Origin: Natronoglycomyces albus | GTDB lineage: Bacteria > Actinomycetota > Actinomycetes > Mycobacteriales > Micromonosporaceae | NCBI RefSeq assembly: GCF_016925535.1 | Contig: NZ_CP070496.1 | Coordinates: forward strand, 2,480,001 to 2,544,000 | DNA: 64,000 nucleotides | Direction: 5' to 3' | Shown here: positions 18,576-31,956 of the stretch, piece after piece | Numbering within the stretch: position 1 is the first letter of the stretch | Layout: each line of letters starts with the position of its first letter | The notes under the pieces: generated by a model | The model's database searches: none | What the model saw: the letters and a program-made list of their open reading frames with translations, nothing else | Told to the model about the DNA's origin: nothing | Position numbers and translations under genes: made by a program

Positions 18576-19214
18576 CTATCCGTTGGACGAGAAGAACCCG
18601 CCCTCGGCAATCTTGGCTTTGTCCTCAGCTGTCACCTGCACATTAGCCGGTGAGAGAAGGAACACCCGATTGGTGACCCGTTCGAACGATCCCCGCAGCC
18701 CGAAGATGAGACCTGCGGCAAAGTCGACCAGACGCTTCGCGTCCGCTTCATCCATTTCCGAGAGGTTCATGATCACCGGAGTGCCATCGCGATAGCATTC
18801 GCCAATCGTGCGGGCCTCGGTATAAGTCGTCGGATGCAGCGTCGTAATGCGATAGTTGGGTTTGCTGTCCTCCTGTGGAAGCGACCGGGCAGTAGCAGTC
18901 GGTTGCTGCGGAGCCACCGACAGGTTCTCCCGATTAAGCGAAGCCACGGAGGGCGAGGTGGAGGTCCTGCTCGCGGAGCGCGCCTCGGAGCGCTCCACCG
19001 AACGCAACGTCGCAGGCTCACCGCCCGCGCGTTCGAGCCGGCGCACCCGACTAGCGCTGGCCGAGGACGTCCGCGAGGATGTCCTCGCGACAGGAGTGTC
19101 CTCCTCGTCGCTGAACTCGTTATCGTTCTCAGAGTAGGCGTTGCGACTATAGCTCCGGTCCTCTTCTTCTTCTATGAGGCCGAGCCACACGCCAGCCTTC
19201 CGCATGGCACCCAT
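18576..19214 (-). CDS. sepF: SepF, membrane anchor of the Z-ring
   Basis: SepF binds the C-terminal tail of FtsZ and ties it to the membrane; in actinobacteria, which lack FtsA, it is the main anchor. The 212-residue protein begins with an amphipathic membrane-binding helix ([18 protein letters not shown]), has a Ser/Arg-rich linker (about 30-125), and ends with the globular SepF domain ([32 protein letters not shown], then [15 protein letters not shown]). A purine-rich GGGAG lies upstream of ATG 19214; a second ATG three codons on is possible. An AT-rich stretch near 19270-19300 may hold its promoter. Confidence 0.96.
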
Positions 19215-19466: not shown

Positions 19467-20192
19467 TCAGTGGGGACGGTCACGGCGGCCAAGTAGTTTG
19501 CCGCCCAAGCGAATCATCGTCGCACCACAAGCGATGGCCTCCTCGAAGTCTCCACTCATACCAGCAGATATCTCGCTGGCATTCGCCTCGATGCGGCGCA
19601 CCCTGTGCGAACATTCGGCCAAGAGGTCGAAGGCCTCTTTGGGCTCCCATTGTGGAGGCGCGACGCCCATGACACCACTCAACGTCAATGAAGAAGACTT
19701 GGCGACGCTCTCGGCCAACGCAGCCACATCGGACACCGCCACTCCCCCACGGCCTGGCGCTCCGTCAAGATTCACCTGCAAGAGCACCCGTGGCCGTCTC
19801 CCATGTTCGGCCGCGGCACGATCGAGAGAACTCACCAGGCGATCTCGATCGACCGAGTGAATCCAATCGGCAAACCTAGCCACAGAACGAGCTTTGTTGC
19901 GCTGAAGTTGCCCGACAAAGTGCCATGCGACCTCAACCCCACTCACCGTAAGCTCCGCGGCTTTCGGTGCCGCCTCTTGTTCGCGGTTTTCACCTATGTC
20001 AGTGATACCCGCGCGTACCAGTGCCACCGCGTCGACGGCGGGAAAGGTCTTAGTGATGGCTACGAGCCTGACCGATTCGGGTGAGCGGCCTGCGGCCCGG
20101 CAAGCATGTGCGATAGCTTGCCGGGCCGCAGCCACGTTTTCGTCAATGTCGGCTTGTCGCGACTTCGTCGGTGTCAGGGAGGGCGGTAGCAC
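19467..20192 (-). CDS. yggS: YggS/PLPBP family pyridoxal-phosphate homeostasis protein
   Basis: This 241-residue PLP-binding barrel protein, related to the N-domain of alanine racemase, buffers free PLP. The Schiff-base Lys lies in LVAITKTFP (about 48), and GENREQEA, WHFVGQLQRNKA and GVMGVAPP are family motifs. The C-terminus reads IRLGGKLLGRRDRPH where most relatives end with a motif like VRxGTAIFG, so the phosphate-loop end is changed. A GTG at 20192 is the start. The laccase-domain gene pgeF, often between ftsZ and yggS, is missing. Confidence 0.92.
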   Translation of the reverse strand: MLPPSLTPTKSRQADIDENVAAARQAIAHACRAAGRSPESVRLVAITKTFPAVDAVALVRAGITDIGENREQEAAPKAAELTVSGVEVAWHFVGQLQRNKARSVARFADWIHSVDRDRLVSSLDRAAAEHGRRPRVLLQVNLDGAPGRGGVAVSDVAALAESVAKSSSLTLSGVMGVAPPQWEPKEAFDLLAECSHRVRRIEANASEISAGMSGDFEEAIACGATMIRLGGKLLGRRDRPH

Positions 20193-20233
20193 TCGTGTCC
20201 TTCTGTTCTGGCTCGATTATCCCGACATCAGGT

Positions 20234-20267
20234 GAGCCTTACCCAAGCGAAGGCTTGGATAAGGCTC
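20234..20267 (-). terminator. Hairpin after ftsZ
   Basis: A 15-base stem with one mismatch (GAGCCTTAcCCAAGC against GCTTGGaTAAGGCTC) and a 4-base loop lies in the 92 bases between ftsZ and yggS. It may end or weaken the ftsZ transcript, or protect its 3' end. There is no U-tract. Confidence 0.55.
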
Positions 20268-20284
20268 GTGATCTCGACCCCCGT

Positions 20285-21412
20285 TTAGGATCCGTTCTTC
20301 AAAAAGTCAGGGACGTCCACGTCGTCGAAGAGCACCTTACGCTGTTCGGGCTGAGTGGTGATCGTCGCGCTGGGATCGCTGGCCTCATCGGAGGCCTTTG
20401 CCGTCACATCCGGTTCCTTCTCAACCGGTTTGATTGGTTTTTGCTGAGCCAGCTCGAAATCACTGTCCTCGGCCTCAAACCCGGCGGCGATGACAGTCAC
20501 GCGGGCCTCTTCGCCCAAGGCGTCGTCGATGACGGCGCCGAAGATGATGTTGGCATCCGAATGCGCACAGTCGCTGACCAACTCGGCCGCGTCGTTGATC
20601 TCGAACAGACCCAAATCCGAACCACCGGCGATGGACAGCAGCACTCCGCGCGCGCCCTCCATACTCTGTTCCAACAGTGGTGACTCGATGGCCGCTCGTG
20701 CCGCCTCAATGGCCCGGTTCTCACCACGAGCGGCGCCGATTCCCATCAACGCCGATCCAGCACCTGACATGACGCTTTTGACATCGGCAAAGTCCAGGTT
20801 GATCAAACCCGGTGTGGTGATCAGGTCGGTAATGCCCTGCACACCGGAGAGCAATACTTGATCGGCCAAGCGGAAGGCATCCATCATGGAGATGGAACGG
20901 TCTCCCAGATGCAAAAGCCGGTCGTTGGGAATGACGATCAAGGTGTCGCACTCGTTACGCAGGTCGTCTATGCCCGACACTGCTTGTGTCTGACGGCGAC
21001 GCCCTTCAAAGGAGAACGGACGCGTCACGACGCCTATGGTCAAAGCACCCAATTTTCGCGCAATATTGGCGACCACAGGGGCACCACCGGTTCCGGTGCC
21101 ACCACCCTCACCACAGGTCACAAAAACCATGTCGGCGCCTTTGAGGACTTCCTCGATCTCGTCGCGGTGGTCCTCGGCGGCCCTAGCCCCCACGTCCGGG
21201 TTCGCTCCGGCCCCCAGGCCTCGCGTCAATTCCCGACCCACGTCCAATTTCACGTCCGCATCGGACATCAGCAGGGCTTGCGCATCGGTGTTAATAGCAA
21301 TGAACTCAACGCCTTTCAAGCCCGCTTCAATCATGCGGTTGACGGCATTGACACCGCCGCCGCCGATTCCGACGACCTTAATGACGGCCAGATAATTGTG
21401 CGGTGGTGTCAT
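20285..21412 (-). CDS. ftsZ: Cell division GTPase FtsZ
   Basis: FtsZ polymerises with GTP into the ring that organises septation. From ATG 21412 the protein has 375 residues: [20 protein letters not shown] starts the nucleotide fold, the tubulin signature GGGTGTGG lies at about 103-110, and the T7 synergy loop is [13 protein letters not shown] variable linker precedes the conserved C-terminal peptide [12 protein letters not shown], which binds SepF and FtsW. An upstream frame extension of 8 residues is unlikely to be used. The 198 bases up to ftsQ may contain its own promoter, common for ftsZ. Confidence 0.98.
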
Positions 21413-21610
21413 CGAGAGACTGCCCTTCCTTCCCATTTACGCCGCGCCGGGGATGTCCGTATGGAACCGTTTGCGGCGACGTACCAGTATTCCCGATCCG
21501 GAAACTATGCCTTCTCGGTCGTACTGACCAGCAGGCGGATCGGCGTGTCGTTAATCTTCTCAAACATCAGTCTCTAGGCCAGAGCTCGGCTCACTTATCC
21601 TTCCCATACG

Positions 21611-22342
21611 CTAACTCACTGAGGGAGCGTTTGGGGCGCTGACATCGAAATGCTGATGATCTTGGGACAACAGTAGCAACGTGACCTGAGATTTCTTTTC
21701 GTTTTGGTCTGCGTCACCCCATCGGATGCTCTGCCCGCCTTCCAAATGCAGCACAACCCCTGCCGCCGTGGGAGATTCGACACGTTCCAACTGGTCACGT
21801 AGTTCGCGTGGCAAATCTTCCAAGATCTCCAGGGTGGACTTAGTCGCCCGGTCGTGTGGGCCGGGATCGTCTAGCTGCACTTGCAGCAGAGCCGGATCGC
21901 TTTCCTCCAAGTGCTGATACGGAACGCCTTCGCGATCGATGACCCAGAAAGAATCGTCCGATTCCGGCACCAATAGATAAGGTCTACGTTCAGTGATCTC
22001 TATTCGCAATCCGCGCGGCCACGAACGAGACACGGTCACCGACTCCACTGCGGCAATGGCACCAATGGCACTCTCGGCACCGACCAGGTCGATCCGTGGT
22101 AGAGGCACGTCGATTTGTTCGGCAACGGCCGCATGCACTTCCTCGTTTGAAACCAAGGAGTTTCCCTGAATTTCCAGATCGCGGGTGGCAAACAACGGGG
22201 TCGTCCACGCTACGGCGACTCCCATGCTCATCACAACCGCCACGGCGAGGACCGACCATAGAAGCCGACGCGAGGAAGTGATGCGAGAAGCCACTCGTAC
22301 CAGTTGCCATTCCCGCCGAGACGATCCACTGTTGCGCATCAT
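21611..22342 (-). CDS. ftsQ: Cell division protein FtsQ
   Basis: FtsQ is a bitopic divisome protein that holds FtsB/FtsL. The 243-residue sequence has a short basic cytosolic part (1-28), one membrane helix (about 29-48), then the POTRA domain starting ATRDLEIQGNSLVSNEEVHAAV and the beta domain with ITERRPYLLVPESDDSFWVIDREGV. Late sequence is typical but weakly conserved. It lies between murC and ftsZ, as in most actinobacterial dcw clusters. No ftsL or ftsB is next to it. Confidence 0.93.
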   Translation of the reverse strand: MMRNSGSSRREWQLVRVASRITSSRRLLWSVLAVAVVMSMGVAVAWTTPLFATRDLEIQGNSLVSNEEVHAAVAEQIDVPLPRIDLVGAESAIGAIAAVESVTVSRSWPRGLRIEITERRPYLLVPESDDSFWVIDREGVPYQHLEESDPALLQVQLDDPGPHDRATKSTLEILEDLPRELRDQLERVESPTAAGVVLHLEGGQSIRWGDADQNEKKSQVTLLLLSQDHQHFDVSAPNAPSVS

Positions 22343-22477: not shown

Positions 22478-23899
22478 CTATCTCGCCAACAAGTCGTCAG
22501 GCATCAACGAGATGGGGGGCGCCCCCATGGTCACCACAATGTCGCCCTCGCGAGCAAAACCGTCGACTACCTCCGGCACGTCTTCCCACCGCTCAACGAA
22601 GACCTTGTCCTCGTCCGCCTGCGGCAGCGCCTCGGTCAACGCGGCTCCACCCTCCCCAGGCGGAATCGTCTCGCCGGGGCCAAAGATCTCCATCACTACC
22701 ACCTTGTCGGCCAAACCCAAAGCGGCGGCGATCTCGGAGCGCATCTCAATCGTGCGATAGACGCGGTAGGGCAAGAACACCGCGATGACCCGACCCTCGG
22801 TGAGGTTTCGCAGAGTCTTCAAGGCCTCGGTCATCGCGGTCGGATGGTAGGCGTACTCGTCGTAATAGCGCACCCCTTGGCGCACTCCACGCAGTTCGAA
22901 ACGGCGCTTGACGCCGCCGAACGAGGCCATGCCCGCAGCGATCTCCTCGACCGTTAGCCCCAGCCTGTGACACACGGCGATAGCCGCGGCCGAGTTCAAC
23001 GCCAGATGTTCGCCGGGAACCGGCAGACGGAAGCGACCGAGTTCCTCACCTTTCCACCACGCGGTGAAATCCACCCCGGCCGTTGATGAAACGAAGTCGC
23101 CAACCCGCAATGTCGCATCGGTGCCACGCCCATAGGTGACCACGTCGCGGCCCTCCAGTTGCAGACGCTCAGCCAGCGAGGCGGTGCCCTCATTGTCCTG
23201 ACACAGCACAGTAAACCCGCGTTTTTCGACGTTGCGGCAAAAAGTCTCGAAGCCGCGGCACAGCGAATCCATATCGCCATAGACGTTGAGGTGGTCGGCG
23301 TCGATATTGGTGACAATGCCGACAGTGGGTCGGTACCGAAGAAAGGACCGGTCCGACTCATCGGCTTCAGCCACAAAGTGGTCGCCAGTACCGTGAGCTC
23401 CAGAGTGCGCGCCAATGATCTCGCCGCCGTTGACGTACGAGGGTGCTCGCCCGGAGTGCTCCAAAATCTGGGTAAGAATCGCGGTAGTCGAGGTCTTGCC
23501 ATGAGTGCCGGTGACCACGATCGAGGTACGACCGGTCATGGCGGCGGCCAAGGCCTCTGAACGGTGGAGAACGGGGATGCCCCGTCGCCGAGCCTCGGCG
23601 ACTTCGATGTGCTCATCGTTGATGGCCGTGGATCGCACAACCGTGTCGATGCCATCCAAATTGGATGCCTCATGTTGACGGTGCAGCACAACACCTTGCG
23701 CGACGAGTTCAGGTAGCGAGGGCCAATCTTTGTATTCGGAGCCGACCGTCGCCAGCCCACGGGTGGCCCACAACCGAGTGAGCCCACTCATGCCTACCCC
23801 GCCCACACCGATGAAGAGGGTGCGGCCCAGATCCTCGGCCGTGATCCCCTTGTCGATGGGCGAGGGCAGATTCTCGTCGCGGCCAGTGTGGTCAGGCAT
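22478..23899 (-). CDS. murC: UDP-N-acetylmuramate--amino acid ligase MurC, unusual active-site motifs
   Basis: MurC adds the first residue (normally L-Ala) to UDP-MurNAc. The 473-residue protein has the Rossmann start GVGGVGMSG (31-39), the ATP loop GTHGKTS (131-137), EADESDRSF (178-186) and the expected three domains. Two motifs that are nearly invariant in typical MurC differ here: DDYxHHPTEV is DEYAYHPTAM (347-356) and the FQPHxYxRT region is FLPYRVYRT (375-383), so a His is Tyr in each. These lie by the incoming amino acid in known structures as I recall. It overlaps the murG stop by 8 bases. Its identity is supported by position and overall fold. Confidence 0.93.
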   Translation of the reverse strand: MPDHTGRDENLPSPIDKGITAEDLGRTLFIGVGGVGMSGLTRLWATRGLATVGSEYKDWPSLPELVAQGVVLHRQHEASNLDGIDTVVRSTAINDEHIEVAEARRRGIPVLHRSEALAAAMTGRTSIVVTGTHGKTSTTAILTQILEHSGRAPSYVNGGEIIGAHSGAHGTGDHFVAEADESDRSFLRYRPTVGIVTNIDADHLNVYGDMDSLCRGFETFCRNVEKRGFTVLCQDNEGTASLAERLQLEGRDVVTYGRGTDATLRVGDFVSSTAGVDFTAWWKGEELGRFRLPVPGEHLALNSAAAIAVCHRLGLTVEEIAAGMASFGGVKRRFELRGVRQGVRYYDEYAYHPTAMTEALKTLRNLTEGRVIAVFLPYRVYRTIEMRSEIAAALGLADKVVVMEIFGPGETIPPGEGGAALTEALPQADEDKVFVERWEDVPEVVDGFAREGDIVVTMGAPPISLMPDDLLAR

Positions 23900-25007
23900 T
23901 CTGAGAAACCGCCTTCAACGTGAACTCTCGCAGAGCCTCATCCCCATCGCGGCGGCCAAAGCCAGCCGAGGCGGCAGCCATCTCGGAGAGTCGGTGACGA
24001 TCAGTGATAAGCGGGATGAGACTGCCATCGATCCACGAAGGGGTCAGATCCTCGTCGTCGCAGAAGATCGCGCCCCCTGCGGCAACAACCGGACCGGCTG
24101 TACGGTACTGCTCGCGGTTGCCCCACGGCATAGGCACGAACACCGTCGGCAGCCCCATCGCGGTGACCTCGGCGACGGTCATAGAACCCCCTCGGGCCAT
24201 CACCATGTCGGCGGCGGCATAGCCCAGCTCCATCTCATTGAGATAGGGCATCGTCACATAGCGGGCGGCCAGATTGTCGGGAATGACCACCGGCTCCTCC
24301 CGGCGGGCTCCGATGACGTGCAGAACTTGAATGCCGTTGTTGGTGAGCGATTCCGCCGCACCCGAGACAGCGTCATTGATCGACTTGGCCCCCTGGGAGC
24401 CGCCATAGACGAACAACGTGGGCCGGGAAGGGTCGAGTCCAAAGTGAGCGCAAGCCTCCTGGCGGCGGGCCGCACGATCCAACGTCGCGATCGAGGTGCG
24501 CAGCGGCACTCCGGTGACATGTCCATCGGCCAACAACGGAACGGCCTGAGGCAAGTGCGGGAATCCCAAGGCCAGATTGTCGGAGAACTTAAGCGCCAAT
24601 TTGTTGGCGACTCCGGGCGGGTCGTTGAACTCGAAGACGACCATTGGGGTCTTGCGGCGCCACGCGGCCAAGTAGGCGGGGACGGCGACATAACCGCCGA
24701 AACCGACCACCGCGTCAGCGGCGACCTCGTCGAGGATATTGCGGGTGGCCTTCATCGCCTTCAACATGCGCGGCGCGGTCAAGAGGAGGTCAAGGTTGAC
24801 CTTCCGCGGCAGCTGATGAGCGGGAACATTGCGCAACGTGTATCCGGCTTTGGGGATGAGCTCATTTTCCAGTCCCTTTTCGGTGCCCAGACACGTGATG
24901 CGGATGTCGGGGTTGTGTCGCCGCAGGCAATCGGCATAGGCCAACAATGGGTAGATGTGGCCGCCGGTTCCGCCGCCCGCGAGGACGACTGAGTTCAGTT
25001 GAGACAC
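23892..25007 (-). CDS. murG: MurG, lipid II-forming GlcNAc transferase
   Basis: MurG transfers GlcNAc from UDP-GlcNAc to lipid I on the inner membrane face. The 371-residue GT-B protein has the N-terminal glycine loop GGTGGH (12-17), a second loop GFGGYVAVPAY, and the donor-side GGSQGAKSIN and ARGGSMTVAE with the Glu that holds ribose. The motif usually HExNxxPGxxN reads FEFNDPPGVAN here (125-135), losing a His, and the RSGA motif reads RGGS. GNREQ keeps the uracil-side Gln. These changes travel together with those in MurC. Confidence 0.94.
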   Translation of the reverse strand: MSQLNSVVLAGGGTGGHIYPLLAYADCLRRHNPDIRITCLGTEKGLENELIPKAGYTLRNVPAHQLPRKVNLDLLLTAPRMLKAMKATRNILDEVAADAVVGFGGYVAVPAYLAAWRRKTPMVVFEFNDPPGVANKLALKFSDNLALGFPHLPQAVPLLADGHVTGVPLRTSIATLDRAARRQEACAHFGLDPSRPTLFVYGGSQGAKSINDAVSGAAESLTNNGIQVLHVIGARREEPVVIPDNLAARYVTMPYLNEMELGYAAADMVMARGGSMTVAEVTAMGLPTVFVPMPWGNREQYRTAGPVVAAGGAIFCDDEDLTPSWIDGSLIPLITDRHRLSEMAAASAGFGRRDGDEALREFTLKAVSQNA

Positions 25008-25086: not shown

Positions 25087-26418
25087 CTATTTCTTGGCGT
25101 CGCTACGCCGTCTCGACGTGGTCTTTTGCCCAGGGGTCGAGCGTTGGCTCGGGCCGCCTGTGCGAGACGACCCTGGCTCGCGGGGTAGTGGCGGGAGCGG
25201 TGCCCACAACAGCCTAGTCAGGCGCGAGGGGTTACGCGCCCGCAGTGCCCGTGCGGCGTCAGGTTCAGCACGGGCAAAGGAGGCGAGCATCCCGACTGCG
25301 GCCAAGACCATCACCAGCGCGGTGCCGCCGTCGGAAATGAAGGGTAGAGGCACCCCGGTGATGGGGAGCAAACCAATGACGCCGCCGATATTGATGACCG
25401 TTTGGCCGGTTAGCCACACCGTACAACCGGAGGCCACCACCCGGCGGAAGGGGTCCTCCACCCGGCGGGCGATGCGGAACCCGGCGTAAATGACGATGCA
25501 GAACAACCCCAGCACCACCAGACAGCCGAAAACGCCCAATTCCTCGGCGATGAGGGCGAAAATAAAGTCATTGTGCCCGTTGGGTAGCCACTCCCACTTT
25601 TGCCGGGACTCGCCCAGGCCAACCCCGAACCAGCCTCCGTCGGAGATGGCGTAATAGCCCTGGATGGCTTGCCAACCCCACGTGTCCTGGTACTCCTCCG
25701 GGTTGCGGAACGACAAGATGCGTTCCATGCGCCGGGAGGCGGCGAAGATCAAAAAGACCGACCCGACAAACGCCAGGGTCAACAAACCGGTGATGATGCG
25801 CAACCTGACACCAGCGGTAAACAGCATGGCTAGGAACATCAGCACCATGATCAGCATGGTCCCCAGGTCGGAGTAGCCGACCAAGACCATGAGCACCCCC
25901 GCGATGGGAAACAGCGGGACGGCGAGGTCACGCCAACTTCCCAGCCGAGGACCAGCTTTGACCAGAATGTCGGCGGCCCACAGCAGAAGGGCGAACTTGG
26001 CGATCTCGGAGGGCTGCAACTGGATGGGCCCGATGTAAATCCACCGGTCATAGGTGGAGACCGCCGCTGATTGGCCCGCGTAGGGAATGAGTACCAGGAT
26101 CAAACCCAGTACCAACGACAGCACCAGCATCGGGCGGGCCAGCGAGCGATATGTGCGCACCGGCAGCCGCTGCGCCACCCAGAAAGCGACCAAACCGATC
26201 GCGGCCCAGGTAGCCTGCTGCACGATCACGGCAAAGGCGTTGCCTTCCCGCGCATAGGATTCGACCATCGTGGCCGAGAACACCATGACCAGCCCGATGC
26301 ACAGCAGCAGACCCACTGCGGACAGCAGCAGGTAGTACGACGCGAGAGGTCGCGCCATCAACCCATGAAGAGGGGCGAAGAGCCGGTTTTGATCTTGCAT
26401 ACGCATCGATTCTTGCAC
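25087..26418 (-). CDS. ftsW: FtsW, SEDS-family peptidoglycan polymerase
   Basis: FtsW polymerises lipid II at the septum together with a class B PBP. The 443-residue protein has about ten membrane helices between residues 28 and 385 and the SEDS signatures: the extracellular segment with DRWIYIGPIQLQPSEIAKFALLLWAAD, the loop WGWQAIQGYYAISDGGWFGVGLGES, LPNGHNDFIFALIAEELG, and GLLPITGVPLPFISDGGTAL. The C-terminal about 60 residues are basic and Pro/Ser rich. GTG 26418 and ATGs at 26406 and 26400 are alternative starts. The partner ftsI is not in this cluster. Confidence 0.96.
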   Translation of the reverse strand: MQESMRMQDQNRLFAPLHGLMARPLASYYLLLSAVGLLLCIGLVMVFSATMVESYAREGNAFAVIVQQATWAAIGLVAFWVAQRLPVRTYRSLARPMLVLSLVLGLILVLIPYAGQSAAVSTYDRWIYIGPIQLQPSEIAKFALLLWAADILVKAGPRLGSWRDLAVPLFPIAGVLMVLVGYSDLGTMLIMVLMFLAMLFTAGVRLRIITGLLTLAFVGSVFLIFAASRRMERILSFRNPEEYQDTWGWQAIQGYYAISDGGWFGVGLGESRQKWEWLPNGHNDFIFALIAEELGVFGCLVVLGLFCIVIYAGFRIARRVEDPFRRVVASGCTVWLTGQTVINIGGVIGLLPITGVPLPFISDGGTALVMVLAAVGMLASFARAEPDAARALRARNPSRLTRLLWAPLPPLPREPGSSRTGGPSQRSTPGQKTTSRRRSDAKK

Positions 26419-26441: not shown

Positions 26442-27824
26442 CTAGCGGTGTTTCCGCCGTGTCAACGCGGCGGCAAAGGCCTGGCCACGTTCGGCATAGC
26501 CCGCATACATGTCGAAGGACGCGGCCGAGGGAGCCAGAAGGACTGTATCTCCCGGACTCGCCACCGCGTCGGCGGCAGCCACCGCTTCATCCATCGCCGA
26601 GTGCTCAACACTGTCCACTATCGCAACCGGTACTCGCGGAGCGTATTCGCGCAGCGCCTCGGCCACCAGGCCCCGATCCTGACCCAACAGTATGGCCGAC
26701 TTCAGGCGTGGGGCCACAGCCTTCACCAATGGTGCGATGTCGACACCTTTCAACTGACCGCCCGCGATCCACACCACGTCGTCGTATGACTCCAGAGAAG
26801 CCTGGGCCGCATGCGGATTGGTGGCCTTGGAGTCATCGACCCACCGCACCCCGTCGTATTCGGCGATCGTGACATTGCGGTGTGGCTCCGGGCGGTACGC
26901 GCGTAGTCCCTCGGCCGCCGAGCGCGGGGTGGCTCCGACCTGATAGGCCAGGGCGGTCGCGGCCAGCGCATTGGCCACGTTGTGTAGCCCAGAGGGGCGG
27001 ATGTCGGTGGCGGGGCAAATGCGTTCGCCGTTGGCGTCGATGAGCCATCCTTCGGCCAGTCCGAACTGGCCCTTGTCAGGTGGGTTGAGGGTGAAGCCGA
27101 TGATGTCGAGGTCGGGGTTGGTGTGAGCTTGGTAGTGCCGTGCTGCGGCGATAACGGCCCGGTCGTCAAGGTTGACGATGGCGGTTCCGGATCTCCAGAT
27201 GTGGGTCTTGGCCTCGACGTAGGATTCCATGCTGCCGTGCCAGTCGAGGTGGTCGGGAGCGAGGTTGATGATCGCCCCTGCTTGGGGGGCCAGTGTGTGG
27301 GACCAGTGGAGTTGGTAGCTGGACAGTTCCACGGCCAGGACGTCCCAGGGGCCGTTGGCGACACTGACCAGTGGTAGGCCGATATTGCCTAGGGCTTGGC
27401 TGCGCAGTCCGGCGGCGGTGAGGATCGCATGCAGCATCGTGGTGGTGGTGGTCTTGCCATTGGTTCCTGTGATGCCAAGCCAACTGGCGGCCTCGGGTGT
27501 TCGAAGCCGCCAGGCCAGCTCGGGTTCGCAGTAGACGTCGATGCCGCGTATGGCCGCTGCCGTCACGATGGGGTGGTGGGGGGCGAAACCAGGTGAGACC
27601 AATAGCTGGTCGATGTCGTCTAGTAGGTTCGGCGGCGCATTGACGCCGATGATGATGCGTGCGCCTTGTTTTTCTAGTGTGCGCAGATTTTCACAGTCGC
27701 GGGCGTCGTAGACGGTGACGTCGCGGTTCATGGACAGCAGCGTGGTCGCGGAGGCGGTTCCGGCGATACCGGCTCCTGCCACCAGGATGCGTTGGGCGAT
27801 GGTCGCTGATATGTCGGCGTTCAT
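26442..27824 (-). CDS. murD: UDP-MurNAc-dipeptide D-glutamate ligase MurD
   Basis: MurD adds D-Glu as the second residue of the stem peptide. The 460-residue protein has an N-terminal nucleotide fold with VAGAGIAGTASA, the ATP loop GTNGKTTTT (120-128), ELSSYQL, NLAPDHLDWHGS and the C-terminal domain with WVDDSKATNPHAAQASLES, which includes the carbamylated-Lys neighbourhood and catalytic DSKATN. LLAPSAASFDMYAGYAERG ends it as usual. It begins 6 bases after mraY and is followed after 23 bases by ftsW. Confidence 0.97.
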   Translation of the reverse strand: MNADISATIAQRILVAGAGIAGTASATTLLSMNRDVTVYDARDCENLRTLEKQGARIIIGVNAPPNLLDDIDQLLVSPGFAPHHPIVTAAAIRGIDVYCEPELAWRLRTPEAASWLGITGTNGKTTTTTMLHAILTAAGLRSQALGNIGLPLVSVANGPWDVLAVELSSYQLHWSHTLAPQAGAIINLAPDHLDWHGSMESYVEAKTHIWRSGTAIVNLDDRAVIAAARHYQAHTNPDLDIIGFTLNPPDKGQFGLAEGWLIDANGERICPATDIRPSGLHNVANALAATALAYQVGATPRSAAEGLRAYRPEPHRNVTIAEYDGVRWVDDSKATNPHAAQASLESYDDVVWIAGGQLKGVDIAPLVKAVAPRLKSAILLGQDRGLVAEALREYAPRVPVAIVDSVEHSAMDEAVAAADAVASPGDTVLLAPSAASFDMYAGYAERGQAFAAALTRRKHR

Positions 27825-27830
27825 GGTCCT

Positions 27831-28934
27831 TTAGCCGGCGATACGTAGGAAGTCGGCGAAGAAGAATCCCAGGCCGATGGCGATTCCGATTCCGGCGATG
27901 ATCCAGAATCGGACGACGATGTTGACCTCGCTCCAACCTTTGAGTTCAAAGTGGTGTTGCAGGGGAGCCATGCGGAAGACGCGGCGGCCGGTGAGTCGGT
28001 AGGAGGTGAACTGGATGATGTTACTCATCGTGATGATGACGAAGAGGGCACCCAGGATCGGTAGCAGCATGATGGTCTTGGTGGACATGGCCATACCCGC
28101 GATGAGTGCGCCAAGTCCCAGAGAGCCGGAGTCACCCATAAAGATTTTCGCCGGTGAGGTGTTCCACCACAGGAACCCGAATAGTGCTCCGGCTGCGGCT
28201 CCGGCTATGAGGGCGATTTCGAGGGGATCTCGCACGTCGTAGCAGTAGTTCGCTGTTTGCAGGTCCTCTGAGGAGCCGCACCAGTGACGGTATTGCCAAA
28301 AGGCGATGACCAGGTAAGCGGTGAAGACCATCATGGAGGCGCCGGTGGCGAGGCCGTCGAGGCCGTCAGTGAGGTTTACGCCGTTGGTGGTGGCGAGGAT
28401 GACGAAGATGAACAGCATGACGGCCCCGACTTTGGTCAGGTCCAGCCAGGGAACGTCTCGGGTGAATGACAGGTATTCGCTGCCCACGGTTTGGCCGATG
28501 GAGCCGGTGTAATAGAAGGCGATGACGCCGAAGATGGCCGCCGAGATGAACAGGCCCAGCATTTTCATGCGGGCGGAGATTCCGCCGGAGTGTTTGCGTC
28601 GGATCTTGAGCCAGTCGTCTATGAATCCGACGAGGCCGCAGGCGAGCATGAGCCCGATCAGGACAATTCCGGTGGCGGTGATGCCACGGGGGCGATCAAA
28701 GCCTTCGGGCAGGGCGATGAGGACGAGGTGTCCTGCGATGTAGGCGATGACAGTGGCGAAGATGAACACCACTCCCCCCATGGTGGGGGTGCCCGCCTTC
28801 TGGAAGTGGGTTTGGGGGCCGTCGGTGCGGATCGGTTGCCCGGCTTTGAGTCGCCGGAACAGGCGGGCCGCCAACGGTGTCAACACCATGGTGATGGCGA
28901 AGGCCACGAATGCGGCGACGATAACTGCTCTCAC
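27831..28934 (-). CDS. mraY: MraY, phospho-MurNAc-pentapeptide translocase
   Basis: MraY joins UDP-MurNAc-pentapeptide to undecaprenyl phosphate to make lipid I. The 367-residue integral membrane protein has ten helices and the family motifs PTMGGVVFI, the Mg-binding Asp pair in [20 protein letters not shown] with NGVNL before it, and [14 protein letters not shown]. The C-terminal [10 protein letters not shown] is diagnostic. The GTG start overlaps the murF stop (GTGA, 28931-28934), implying translational coupling. Confidence 0.98.
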
Positions 28935-30325
28935 GAGTCAGAGTCCTCCTCGCTGAGGGTGGGAAGGCGCAGAAAATCGGCGATGTCCCAAGTGCGGTAG
29001 CGCGAACCTTTGACGAGCACAGCGTCGCCGGGTCGCAGTTGTTGGCGCAGAATGTCGATGGCGTCGCCCTGTTGGGGAACGTGCGTGGCGGTTATGGAGC
29101 CTGCCGAGGATTGGGCGCCACGGATGATCGGTTGGGTACCGTCGCCTACGGCGATCACATGGTCGATGCCTTGTTCGGCGGCATGCTTGCCAAGTTCATG
29201 GTGGCATTCGTCGGACAAGTCGATGAGGTCGGCCATGAGGCCGAGGACCGCGAAGCGACGTCCGGTGGTCGGCACGTTGGCTAGGGCGTGGATGGCTGCG
29301 GTCATGGAGGCAGGGTTGGCGTTGTAGGAGTCGTCGATGACGGTGATGCCGTCACCGCGTCGGTAGAGGTCCATCCGTCGTTCGCTGAGCCGAGCGACGC
29401 GACCGAGTTCGGCGGCGATGTGTTCGGCACTGGCCCTCAGGGTGTGGGCGACGGCGGCGGCTGCCAGCGCGTTGGAGACCTGGTGGGTGCCGTACAGCGG
29501 AAGTTCGACCTGTGCTGTGCCCGATGGGGTCACGAGGGTGAAGTGAGGGCGGCCCTGTTCGGTGTGGAGTTTCTCGGCTCTGACGTCGGCGGGGCTGTGT
29601 ATTCCGAAGGTGAGTACCTCGGCGGCGGTCTCGGAGGCCATGGCGGCGACACGGTGGTCGTCGGCGTTGAGGATGGCGGTGCCTTCGGCGGGAAGGAAGC
29701 GTGGTAGTTCGCCCTTGACGTGAGCGGTGTTCTCTATGGAGCCGAATCCGTCGAGGTGGGAGATGCCGACGTTGAGCACGACTCCGATGTGGGGTGGGGC
29801 GATGTGGCAAAGCTGGGTGATGTTGCCCTTGAAGCGGGCCGCGGTTTCCAAGACGAGGTATTGGGTGTCTGCTTGGGTGCGGCAGACGGTGTAGGGGTGT
29901 CCTAGTTCGTTGTTGAAGTTAGCTTCGGTGGCCACCGTTGGCCCTAGGGAGGCGCATAGCTGCCCGATGAGGTCTTTGGTGGAGGTTTTGCCGTTGGATC
30001 CGGTGACGGCGATGACCGTTGCTTGGCTGCGGCGGAGGGTTTCGCTGGCGAGGTCGGCTAGGGCGGTGAGGCCGTCGGCGACGTAGATGGCGGGTCCGGC
30101 CACCTCTTGGGTGGCGATGGTGGCCACTGCTCCCAGTTGGTGGGCTTTGGCGGCGTAGTCGTGGCCGTTGACTCGTTCACCTGGGAGTGCCACGAAGAGG
30201 CCGCCGGTGGTGACTTTGCGCGAGTCGTATTCCACGGTCGCGGTGACGGTGGTGGACGCGTCTGTGTTCGGGCTAAGTTTGCCGCCGGTTGCGGCCGCCA
30301 CCTCAGCCAAGGTCATCGCGATCAC
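28931..30325 (-). CDS. murF: MurF, D-Ala-D-Ala adding ligase
   Basis: MurF adds the D-Ala-D-Ala dipeptide to UDP-MurNAc-tripeptide. The 464-residue protein starts at GTG 30325 (reading [14 protein letters not shown], close to the conserved MurF opening), has the substrate loop [21 protein letters not shown] loop [10 protein letters not shown] (109-118), and the C-terminal domain with [11 protein letters not shown] and [12 protein letters not shown]. It follows murE after 83 bases on the same strand. Confidence 0.97.
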
Positions 30326-30408: not shown

Positions 30409-31956
30409 TTAGACCGCAGCGGGTGTGACCCATCCGGCGTCTGCGAGAGCGCGAGCCAGCAGCACCCGGTCATCACATTCGATCACTCGGTCGGCCAACT
30501 CTTGCGTGGTCTCGTGCCCTTTGCCCAGCAGAGCTATCGTATCGCCCGGCGCGGCCATGGCGACCGCTTCCCGCACCGCCACTTCCCGACCGGAAATATT
30601 ACGGCAGGGGACTGCCTGAACCGCACTGGCCACCTGAGCCCGAATGGAGGCGGGGTCCTCGGTGCGGGGATTGTCGTCAGTGATCATGACCAGGTCAGCG
30701 GAGGCGGCGGCCGCACGGCCCATGAGGGCGCGTTTGCTGGCGTCCCGGTCGCCACCGGCCCCAAGAATGGCAATGACCCGGCCCGGTGTGGTCTCTTGCA
30801 AAGAATCGAGTACGGCCGAAATCGCCTCCGGCTTGTGGGCGTAGTCGACCACACCGCGCACCGGCGCGGTTCCGGAGACCAGCTCCATTCGCCCGGGAAC
30901 GCCCGGGCAGGAGGCGACACCGGAGGTCGCCGTGTCCAAGGGCACGCCGACTGCGGAGAGGGAAGCGTATGCCAGCAGCGCGTTGGCCATGTTGTGTCGG
31001 CCGGGCATATGCAAGGTGGCCTCGGTGGTCCCTTCGGGCCCGGTTACAAAGAAGTGCTGGTCGAAACCCTCTCGGGCGGTCGAGGCGGCGTACCAGGTCG
31101 CGCGCGGGTCGGTCAACGAATAGGTGACCGTCTCGGGCTTGGCCAGCGAGATCACCCGTTCATCATCGGCGTTGAGGATCTCGACCGTGGCGCGACCGTC
31201 GAACAGCTCGGCCTTGGCCTGAAAGTATTCGTCCAGGTCGCGATGGAAATCGAGGTGGTCGGTACCGAACATGGTGTATCCAGCGACAGCGAAGCGGCAA
31301 CCGCCCACCCGCCCTAGGGTCAATGCGTGGCTAGAGACTTCCATGACCACGTCGGTGACACCGCGTTCCAGGGCCACGGCCAAGAGCGCCTGCAACTCAG
31401 GGGCTTCGGGAGTGGTGCGCTTGGAAGGGATGGTCTCCCCGGCGATGGTCGTCTCGACGGTGCCAATGATGCCCGTGGTGCGACCGGCGTGCCGCAGCCC
31501 AGCTTCGATCAAATAGCAGACTGATGTCTTTCCGCTGGTACCGGTAATTCCGATCAGATTGAGGTGCTCGGAGGGCCGCCCCCAGATGCGAGCGGCTATT
31601 TCACCGGTGAGCGCTCGAGGGTTTGTGGCCAAAAGCAACGGTATGCCAGCCTCGGCCGCGTCCTCAGCCGCAAGCTGAGCCCCGCGTTCATCGGTCAGGA
31701 TCGCCACGGCGCCACGTTGAATGGCCTGAGCGCTAAATTCGGCGCCATGCCGATTCGCGCCCGCCAAGGCCGCGTAGATGTCACCGCGCTGCACCAGATG
31801 GCCAGCCAGGGAAATTCCGGTGGCGTGACCGCCCAATGAGGCCGCCAGGTTGTCCGGCTCGACCGTGGTGCCACCATTGGTGGCACCGGTCAGTAGATCG
31901 GCCAGTTTTGCCAGCGGAAGCGGTTCGGTATTCGTGGGACGGGGAAAGTCAAGCAC
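30409..31956 (-). CDS. murE: MurE, meso-diaminopimelate adding ligase
   Basis: MurE adds the third residue of the stem peptide. The 515-residue protein shows ATP loop GTSGKTS (139-145), TTPEAPELQ, MEVSSHALTLGRV and the C-terminal motif DDNPRTEDP; DNPR marks meso-diaminopimelate rather than lysine specificity, in line with actinobacterial walls. Residue differences include GTDHLDFH where GQDHLDFH is usual. Start GTG 31956; a purine-rich GGCGAGG precedes it. It is the first wall-synthesis gene of the cluster here, since ftsI is absent upstream. Confidence 0.96.
   Translation of the reverse strand: MLDFPRPTNTEPLPLAKLADLLTGATNGGTTVEPDNLAASLGGHATGISLAGHLVQRGDIYAALAGANRHGAEFSAQAIQRGAVAILTDERGAQLAAEDAAEAGIPLLLATNPRALTGEIAARIWGRPSEHLNLIGITGTSGKTSVCYLIEAGLRHAGRTTGIIGTVETTIAGETIPSKRTTPEAPELQALLAVALERGVTDVVMEVSSHALTLGRVGGCRFAVAGYTMFGTDHLDFHRDLDEYFQAKAELFDGRATVEILNADDERVISLAKPETVTYSLTDPRATWYAASTAREGFDQHFFVTGPEGTTEATLHMPGRHNMANALLAYASLSAVGVPLDTATSGVASCPGVPGRMELVSGTAPVRGVVDYAHKPEAISAVLDSLQETTPGRVIAILGAGGDRDASKRALMGRAAAASADLVMITDDNPRTEDPASIRAQVASAVQAVPCRNISGREVAVREAVAMAAPGDTIALLGKGHETTQELADRVIECDDRVLLARALADAGWVTPAAV

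Follow-up and report, generated by a model that had tools for sequence, protein, structure and literature searches.

The murC gene of Natronoglycomyces albus encodes the housekeeping MurC of an actinobacterium with a glycine-type cell wall, and its amino-acid pocket carries tyrosine at two positions that are usually histidine. The first of these tyrosines is fixed in every sampled member of the clade to which N. albus belongs. The loss of the editing factor PgeF (YfiH) is common to both glycine-wall lineages, the Tyr clade and the Microbacteriaceae. With moderate confidence, we attribute the glycine wall to the loss of PgeF editing combined, in the Tyr clade, with a remodelled MurC pocket. All coordinates refer to the window, which is the whole 64,000-nucleotide stretch of N. 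albus DNA that was analysed.

The genome assembly comprises 4,012,379 b in 3 contigs, with a G+C content of 62% in the window; the published genome of strain ACPA22 has a chromosome of 3.94 Mb, two plasmids (59.8 and 14.8 kb) and a G+C content of 61.5%. The murC gene is part of a division and cell wall cluster with the order murE, murF, mraY, murD, ftsW, murG, murC, ftsQ, ftsZ, yggS, sepF, located entirely on the minus strand (Table 1). Its product scores 393.4 bits against TIGR01082 over residues 29-467, and the curated equivalog cut-off is 335.1. The AlphaFold model (mean pLDDT 94.1) superposes on Haemophilus influenzae MurC (1p31/1p3d) with a TM-score of 0.89-0.92 (0.90-0.92 against 1p3d) and an rmsd of ~2 Å. 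The three-domain fold and the Mur-ligase catalytic residues are present, and K135, E178, H203, N302, R332, R379 and R382 are all kept. Since score, fold and catalytic residues agree, the protein is a variant that is still a MurC.

Table 1 Features of the N. albus division and cell wall cluster (window coordinates).
Feature	Position	Strand	Basis and remarks
sepF	18576..19214	-	PF04472
yggS/ylmE family PLP protein, directly after ftsZ	19467..20192	-	TIGR00044, 158 bits
ftsZ-yggS gap, 92 bp; site of pgeF/yfiH in sampled f8 and f16 genomes	20193..20284	.	PF02578 search; layout comparison
ftsZ	20285..21436	-	TIGR00065, 421 bits
ftsQ	21611..22342	-	PF08478, PF03799
murC, UDP-N-acetylmuramate--amino acid ligase, 473 aa	22478..23899	-	TIGR01082, 393 bits; single copy; AlphaFold model
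Motif FLPYRVYRT, residues 375-383 (usual FQPHxYSRT)	22751..22777	-	Tyr378 codon 22766-22768 = H. influenzae His376
Motif DEYAYHPTAM, residues 347-356 (usual DDYAHHPTEV)	22832..22861	-	Tyr351 codon 22847-22849 = H. influenzae His348
murG	23892..25007	-	TIGR01133, 246 bits, just below curated cut-off of 250; PF03033, PF04101
ftsW	25087..26418	-	TIGR02614
murD, must accept the MurC product as substrate	26442..27824	-	TIGR01087
mraY	27831..28934	-	TIGR00445
murF	28931..30325	-	TIGR01143
murE	30409..31956	-	NF001124, TIGR01085

Alignment to H. influenzae MurC places Tyr351 and Tyr378 at His348 and His376, so that both histidines are replaced. A sequence-only reading of this DNA had reported the two motifs with Tyr at the usual His, and both the minus-strand ORF and the alignment bear this out. 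It had also stated that the motifs flank the incoming substrate. This was right, since PMC3060825 names His376, Arg377, Arg380, Tyr346 and His348 of the H. influenzae enzyme as presumed contacts of the incoming amino acid. The sequence-only reading did not give the strand, and it missed the loss of PgeF. Arg377, Arg380 and Tyr346 (H. influenzae numbering) are retained in N. albus MurC, and the pocket is further changed by Glu352 to Ala and Ser379 to Tyr. Position 352 is Ser or Ala in the Tyr clade and Glu or Lys in all other MurCs sampled; Ser379 is replaced by Tyr in 32/34 Tyr-clade MurCs, and Asp345 by Glu in the GTDB family of N. albus and in Cryptosporangium-like genomes. Seven of the 10 clade-fixed positions fall in the C-terminal, amino-acid-binding domain (p = 0.015). 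The N-terminal UDP-binding domain also contains clade-fixed changes, V35 and W59. Position 35, in the Gly-rich loop, has Val for Ala and position 59 has Trp for Ser; both lie off the two motifs. At residues 459-462 (window 22514-22525) the GAGD end motif reads GAPP, which is likewise clade-fixed.

Tyr351 is found in all 34 clade members of a 97-row MurC tree and in none of the 63 others, and is therefore not a chance occurrence. With the motif columns left out, the Tyr-type sequences form one clade (SH-aLRT 100), and on this tree the signature is of single origin. The clade comprises Micromonosporaceae together with Glycomycetaceae, MAG families, and genomes resembling Cryptosporangium and Fodinicola. 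This fits published work that groups Cryptosporangium alongside Glycomycetales and Micromonosporales. All 25 genera first sampled of the GTDB family of N. albus have Tyr351, as do further species, and it is common to three more families of the order: f13 (Cryptosporangium-like), f5 (G028, Fodinicola-like) and f11 (G034). In the class sample, the Tyr pattern occurs in 3/297 genomes, all three from the family of N. albus, and no Tyr351 MurC was found outside the clade in the genomes surveyed. The positions of the Tyr pocket are invariant or nearly so across ~50% sequence divergence. Position 378 is Tyr in 30 clade members and Leu in 4 of the 34, so the expectation of Tyr at both sites does not hold strictly.

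A scan of named GTDB genomes with the N. albus MurC as protein query gave no match. The corresponding DNA-pattern scan returned 6 records, four of which are Tyr-type MurC loci, all in MAGs; the Glutamicibacter and Halieaceae records have no MurC match. Two MurC fragments, L060 (genome G037) and L066 (G035), are identical though assigned to different families, and contamination probably accounts for the second MurC of G037.

In Micromonospora, glycine occupies position 1 of the peptide stem. The published composition of N. albus peptidoglycan is Gly:Glu:mDAP:Ala 1.02:1.0:1.08:0.74, type A1gamma' with Gly at position 1; these literature values, with Gly:Glu:mDAP near 1:1:1 and Ala about one or less, are those expected of A1gamma'. 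LC/MS of Fodinicola acaciae peptidoglycan lists mDAP, D-Ala, D-Glu and Gly, with no L-Ala. Both Tyr-clade organisms whose wall data were examined, N. albus and F. acaciae, have glycine. Outside the clade, Rhodoluna lacicola (Microbacteriaceae) yields Mur-Gly and Gly-D-Glu on partial hydrolysis. A named Microbacterium MurC carries DDYAHHPTEV and QQPHTYSRT, that is, His/His, and His348 and His376 are kept in 13/13 genomes of family f46, identified as Microbacteriaceae by 62-81% identity to named Microbacterium MurC. A Tyr pocket is therefore not required for a glycine wall. Moreover, because the signature arose only once, its correlation with glycine amounts to one event. The proposal that Tyr tracks glycine walls consequently survives in part: N. 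albus and F. acaciae have Gly and Tyr351 stays within the clade, while the single origin and the His/His of Microbacteriaceae count against it. Its stronger form, Tyr in all glycine-wall lineages, is contradicted by the Microbacteriaceae, which keep both His and show Mur-Gly in Rhodoluna. The sequence-only reading had itself named the absence of Tyr from lineages with Gly as a refutation, and as worded this is what the Microbacteriaceae show.

All 13 Microbacteriaceae (L101-L113) have Gln or His in place of Phe373, a pocket-side residue of the second motif. The mycobacterial-type MurCs examined are His/His; in PMC8844914, M. tuberculosis and M. leprae MurC are cited as using Gly and L-Ala about equally.

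According to PMC8844914 (2022), MurC specificity alone does not explain the species-specific first residue, and the E. coli amidase YfiH/PgeF has UDP-MurNAc-Ser as its best substrate but acts on UDP-MurNAc-Gly too. PF02578 (PgeF/YfiH) has no match anywhere in the N. albus genome, nor in any of 347 genomes from 42 genera of its GTDB family. Comparison of gene order places pgeF between ftsZ and yggS in the f8 and f16 genomes examined; it is not there in the Tyr-clade, Microbacteriaceae and f35 genomes compared. The order sample has PF02578 in 104/150 genomes, and the remaining 46, derived by difference from the list of matching genomes, comprise the complete set of 33 Tyr-clade genomes, the 12 genomes of family f2 without exception, and the draft assembly G089. 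The class sample has it in 274/297, the absences including the three genomes of the N. albus family, 11 of f46, three f35 MAGs, G202, G346 and G357. Among the Microbacteriaceae (f46) the count is 0/13, including G392 and G413, which are not among the matches. In nearly all other actinobacteria tested, pgeF is present. Its absence alone is no proof of glycine, since it is also absent in f2, f35, G346 and G202, which lie outside the lineages with established glycine walls.

Two of these pgeF-less lineages have altered MurC at position 376. In f2 (L062, L065, L131-L140), which may be Jatrophihabitantaceae, the second motif is FQPGT(Y/F)SRT, with His376 changed to Gly in 12/12 and PgeF absent in 12/12. 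The f35 MAGs (L121, L125, L126) have DDYAHHHTEL and FQPLRFTRT, with His376 changed to Leu in 3/3 and PgeF absent; Pro is replaced by His in their first motif. In the order sample, the FQPH motif occurs in 102/102 pgeF-bearing genomes with an assembled MurC and in 1/46 without pgeF, a contrast that is not a count of independent events, so that its Fisher values were set aside; one further pattern match, in G028, lies far from murC. FQPH is apparently absent in many pgeF-bearing class genomes, and this was discarded as a sign of His376 loss, the sequences read showing FQAHHYYRT, FQSH, YQPH or IQPH with His376 kept. Among the pgeF-bearing genomes examined, all those with one MurC keep His376; the sole departure is an extra MurC copy in G415. 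On the MurC tree there are six pgeF losses and three His376 changes, and a sign test of the two on supported branches has 2 usable pairs and no power (p = 1). With so few independent events, the tie between pgeF loss and His376 change is suggestive and not proven.

Family f30 contains divergent MurCs of other kinds. Genome G415 (L190, L200) has two adjacent, divergent MurC copies with PgeF present, and one of these carries DDYANHPTKI and FQPELYSRT, with both His changed (Asn, Glu). Three others (L195, L197, L198) are very divergent, at ~34-36% identity, with LQPH, IQPH or IEPH and motifs ending in SRL or SRF. These three would fit Frankia and the published plant-type MurC2 (PMC7231273).

We propose the following route to the glycine wall. 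The N. albus MurC would attach glycine to UDP-muramic acid, and it almost certainly makes UDP-MurNAc-Gly in the cell. With the editing amidase PgeF lost, the glycine precursor would survive: UDP-MurNAc-Gly would no longer be hydrolysed to UDP-MurNAc, and would accumulate and be used by MurD. We hold with good confidence that PgeF loss was part of the switch to glycine. In the Tyr clade, rebuilding of the MurC pocket (H348Y, H376Y or L, E352S or A, S379Y; H. influenzae numbering), with catalytic residues and both pocket arginines unchanged, would shift MurC usage from L-alanine towards glycine. A shift of MurC specificity towards glycine by the Tyr pocket seems to us somewhat probable. Bulkier residues at 348 and 376 could leave less room for the L-alanine methyl group; a single steric rule is probably too simple, since f2 has gone the other way, from His to Gly. 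We infer that the substitutions alter MurC kinetics and that PgeF loss is a cause, not a consequence. A more general form may apply, in which the pair of MurC pocket and PgeF editing sets the first stem residue, and actinobacteria have repeatedly moved to glycine, or to some other residue than alanine, through PgeF loss, usually with a change around MurC 348-376. We regard this as a real possibility, short of probable.

The disappearance of two conserved active-site histidines could instead mean that the protein is a MurC-like paralogue, degenerate or turned to another use. This reading has practically no chance of being right: the 4.01 Mb genome encodes no other MurC, the remaining matches being neighbouring Mur ligases, the ORF lies inside the division and cell wall cluster, and it combines intact catalytic residues with a high-confidence MurC fold. 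An essential gene present as a single copy refutes it. The pocket may also have adapted to another feature of the substrate, for instance N-glycolylmuramic acid, which occurs in many Micromonosporaceae; the clade-fixed V35 and W59 of the UDP-binding domain would suit such a role. Mycobacteria have N-glycolylated muramic acid as well, yet keep His/His. The muramic acid of F. acaciae is N-acetyl, yet the Fodinicola-like genome is of the Tyr type, and we rejected N-glycolylation as the driver. Both residues are also on the amino-acid contact list in PMC3060825, and adaptation to a feature other than glycine is quite improbable.

A more serious alternative is that PgeF loss and high cellular glycine alone give the glycine wall, the Tyr changes being a neutral or compensatory lineage marker. 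The Microbacteriaceae, with glycine walls, no PgeF and His/His, are as this would predict; the single origin of the Tyr signature agrees with it, as does the equal use of both amino acids by M. leprae and M. tuberculosis MurC described in PMC8844914. However, the substitutions fall at positions reported to contact the amino acid, and these positions are invariant, or nearly so, over ~50% sequence divergence. The pgeF-less f2 (Gly) and f35 (Leu) have also altered position 376, whereas the pgeF-bearing single-MurC genomes examined keep His. We therefore consider it unlikely that PgeF loss acted without the pocket in the Tyr clade, and prefer the combination of lost editing and remodelled pocket.

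MurC and PgeF are known families. What is new is the fixed Tyr pocket of the glycine-wall clade and the loss of PgeF in two glycine-wall lineages; the literature searched contains no description of a fixed Tyr pocket in a whole glycine-wall clade, nor of a PgeF loss common to two such lineages. The literature has not settled how bacteria come to use L-Ala, Gly or L-Ser as the first stem residue. In a known glycine-wall clade, the distribution of two genes follows the wall type, murC being altered and pgeF lost, and pgeF loss also follows a second glycine-wall lineage of independent origin; together, an altered MurC and a lost PgeF could explain the origin of glycine walls. The first-residue question is now directly testable with purified enzymes and single gene transfer, and the MurC pocket and pgeF offer a possible genome-based predictor of wall type. 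They also flag taxa whose walls deserve re-examination. If the general form proposed above is true, f2 and the MAG family f35 have unrecognised non-alanine walls.

The N. albus enzyme shares with TIGR01082 MurCs (H. influenzae 1p3d, M. bovis 7bva) the fold, catalytic residues, gene neighbourhood, the two pocket arginines and Tyr346. It differs from them in His348 and His376 (Tyr), Glu352 (Ala, with Ser or Ala across the clade), Ser379 (Tyr) and the end motif (GAPP for GAGD), and, judging from the wall, in having glycine rather than L-alanine as its physiological residue. The Tyr clade is unlike PgeF-bearing genomes in lacking throughout the editing factor (PF02578) that acts on the MurC product and is located between ftsZ and yggS in f8 and f16. 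The M. leprae stem is of the glycine type, with Gly for L-alanine at position 1 as in N. albus; its MurC is described as using Gly and L-Ala about equally, with no special pocket reported in the literature searched. The Microbacteriaceae, with group B peptidoglycan, resemble N. albus in having Gly at position 1 and no PgeF. In contrast, their MurC keeps His348 and His376 and has Phe373 changed to Gln or His.
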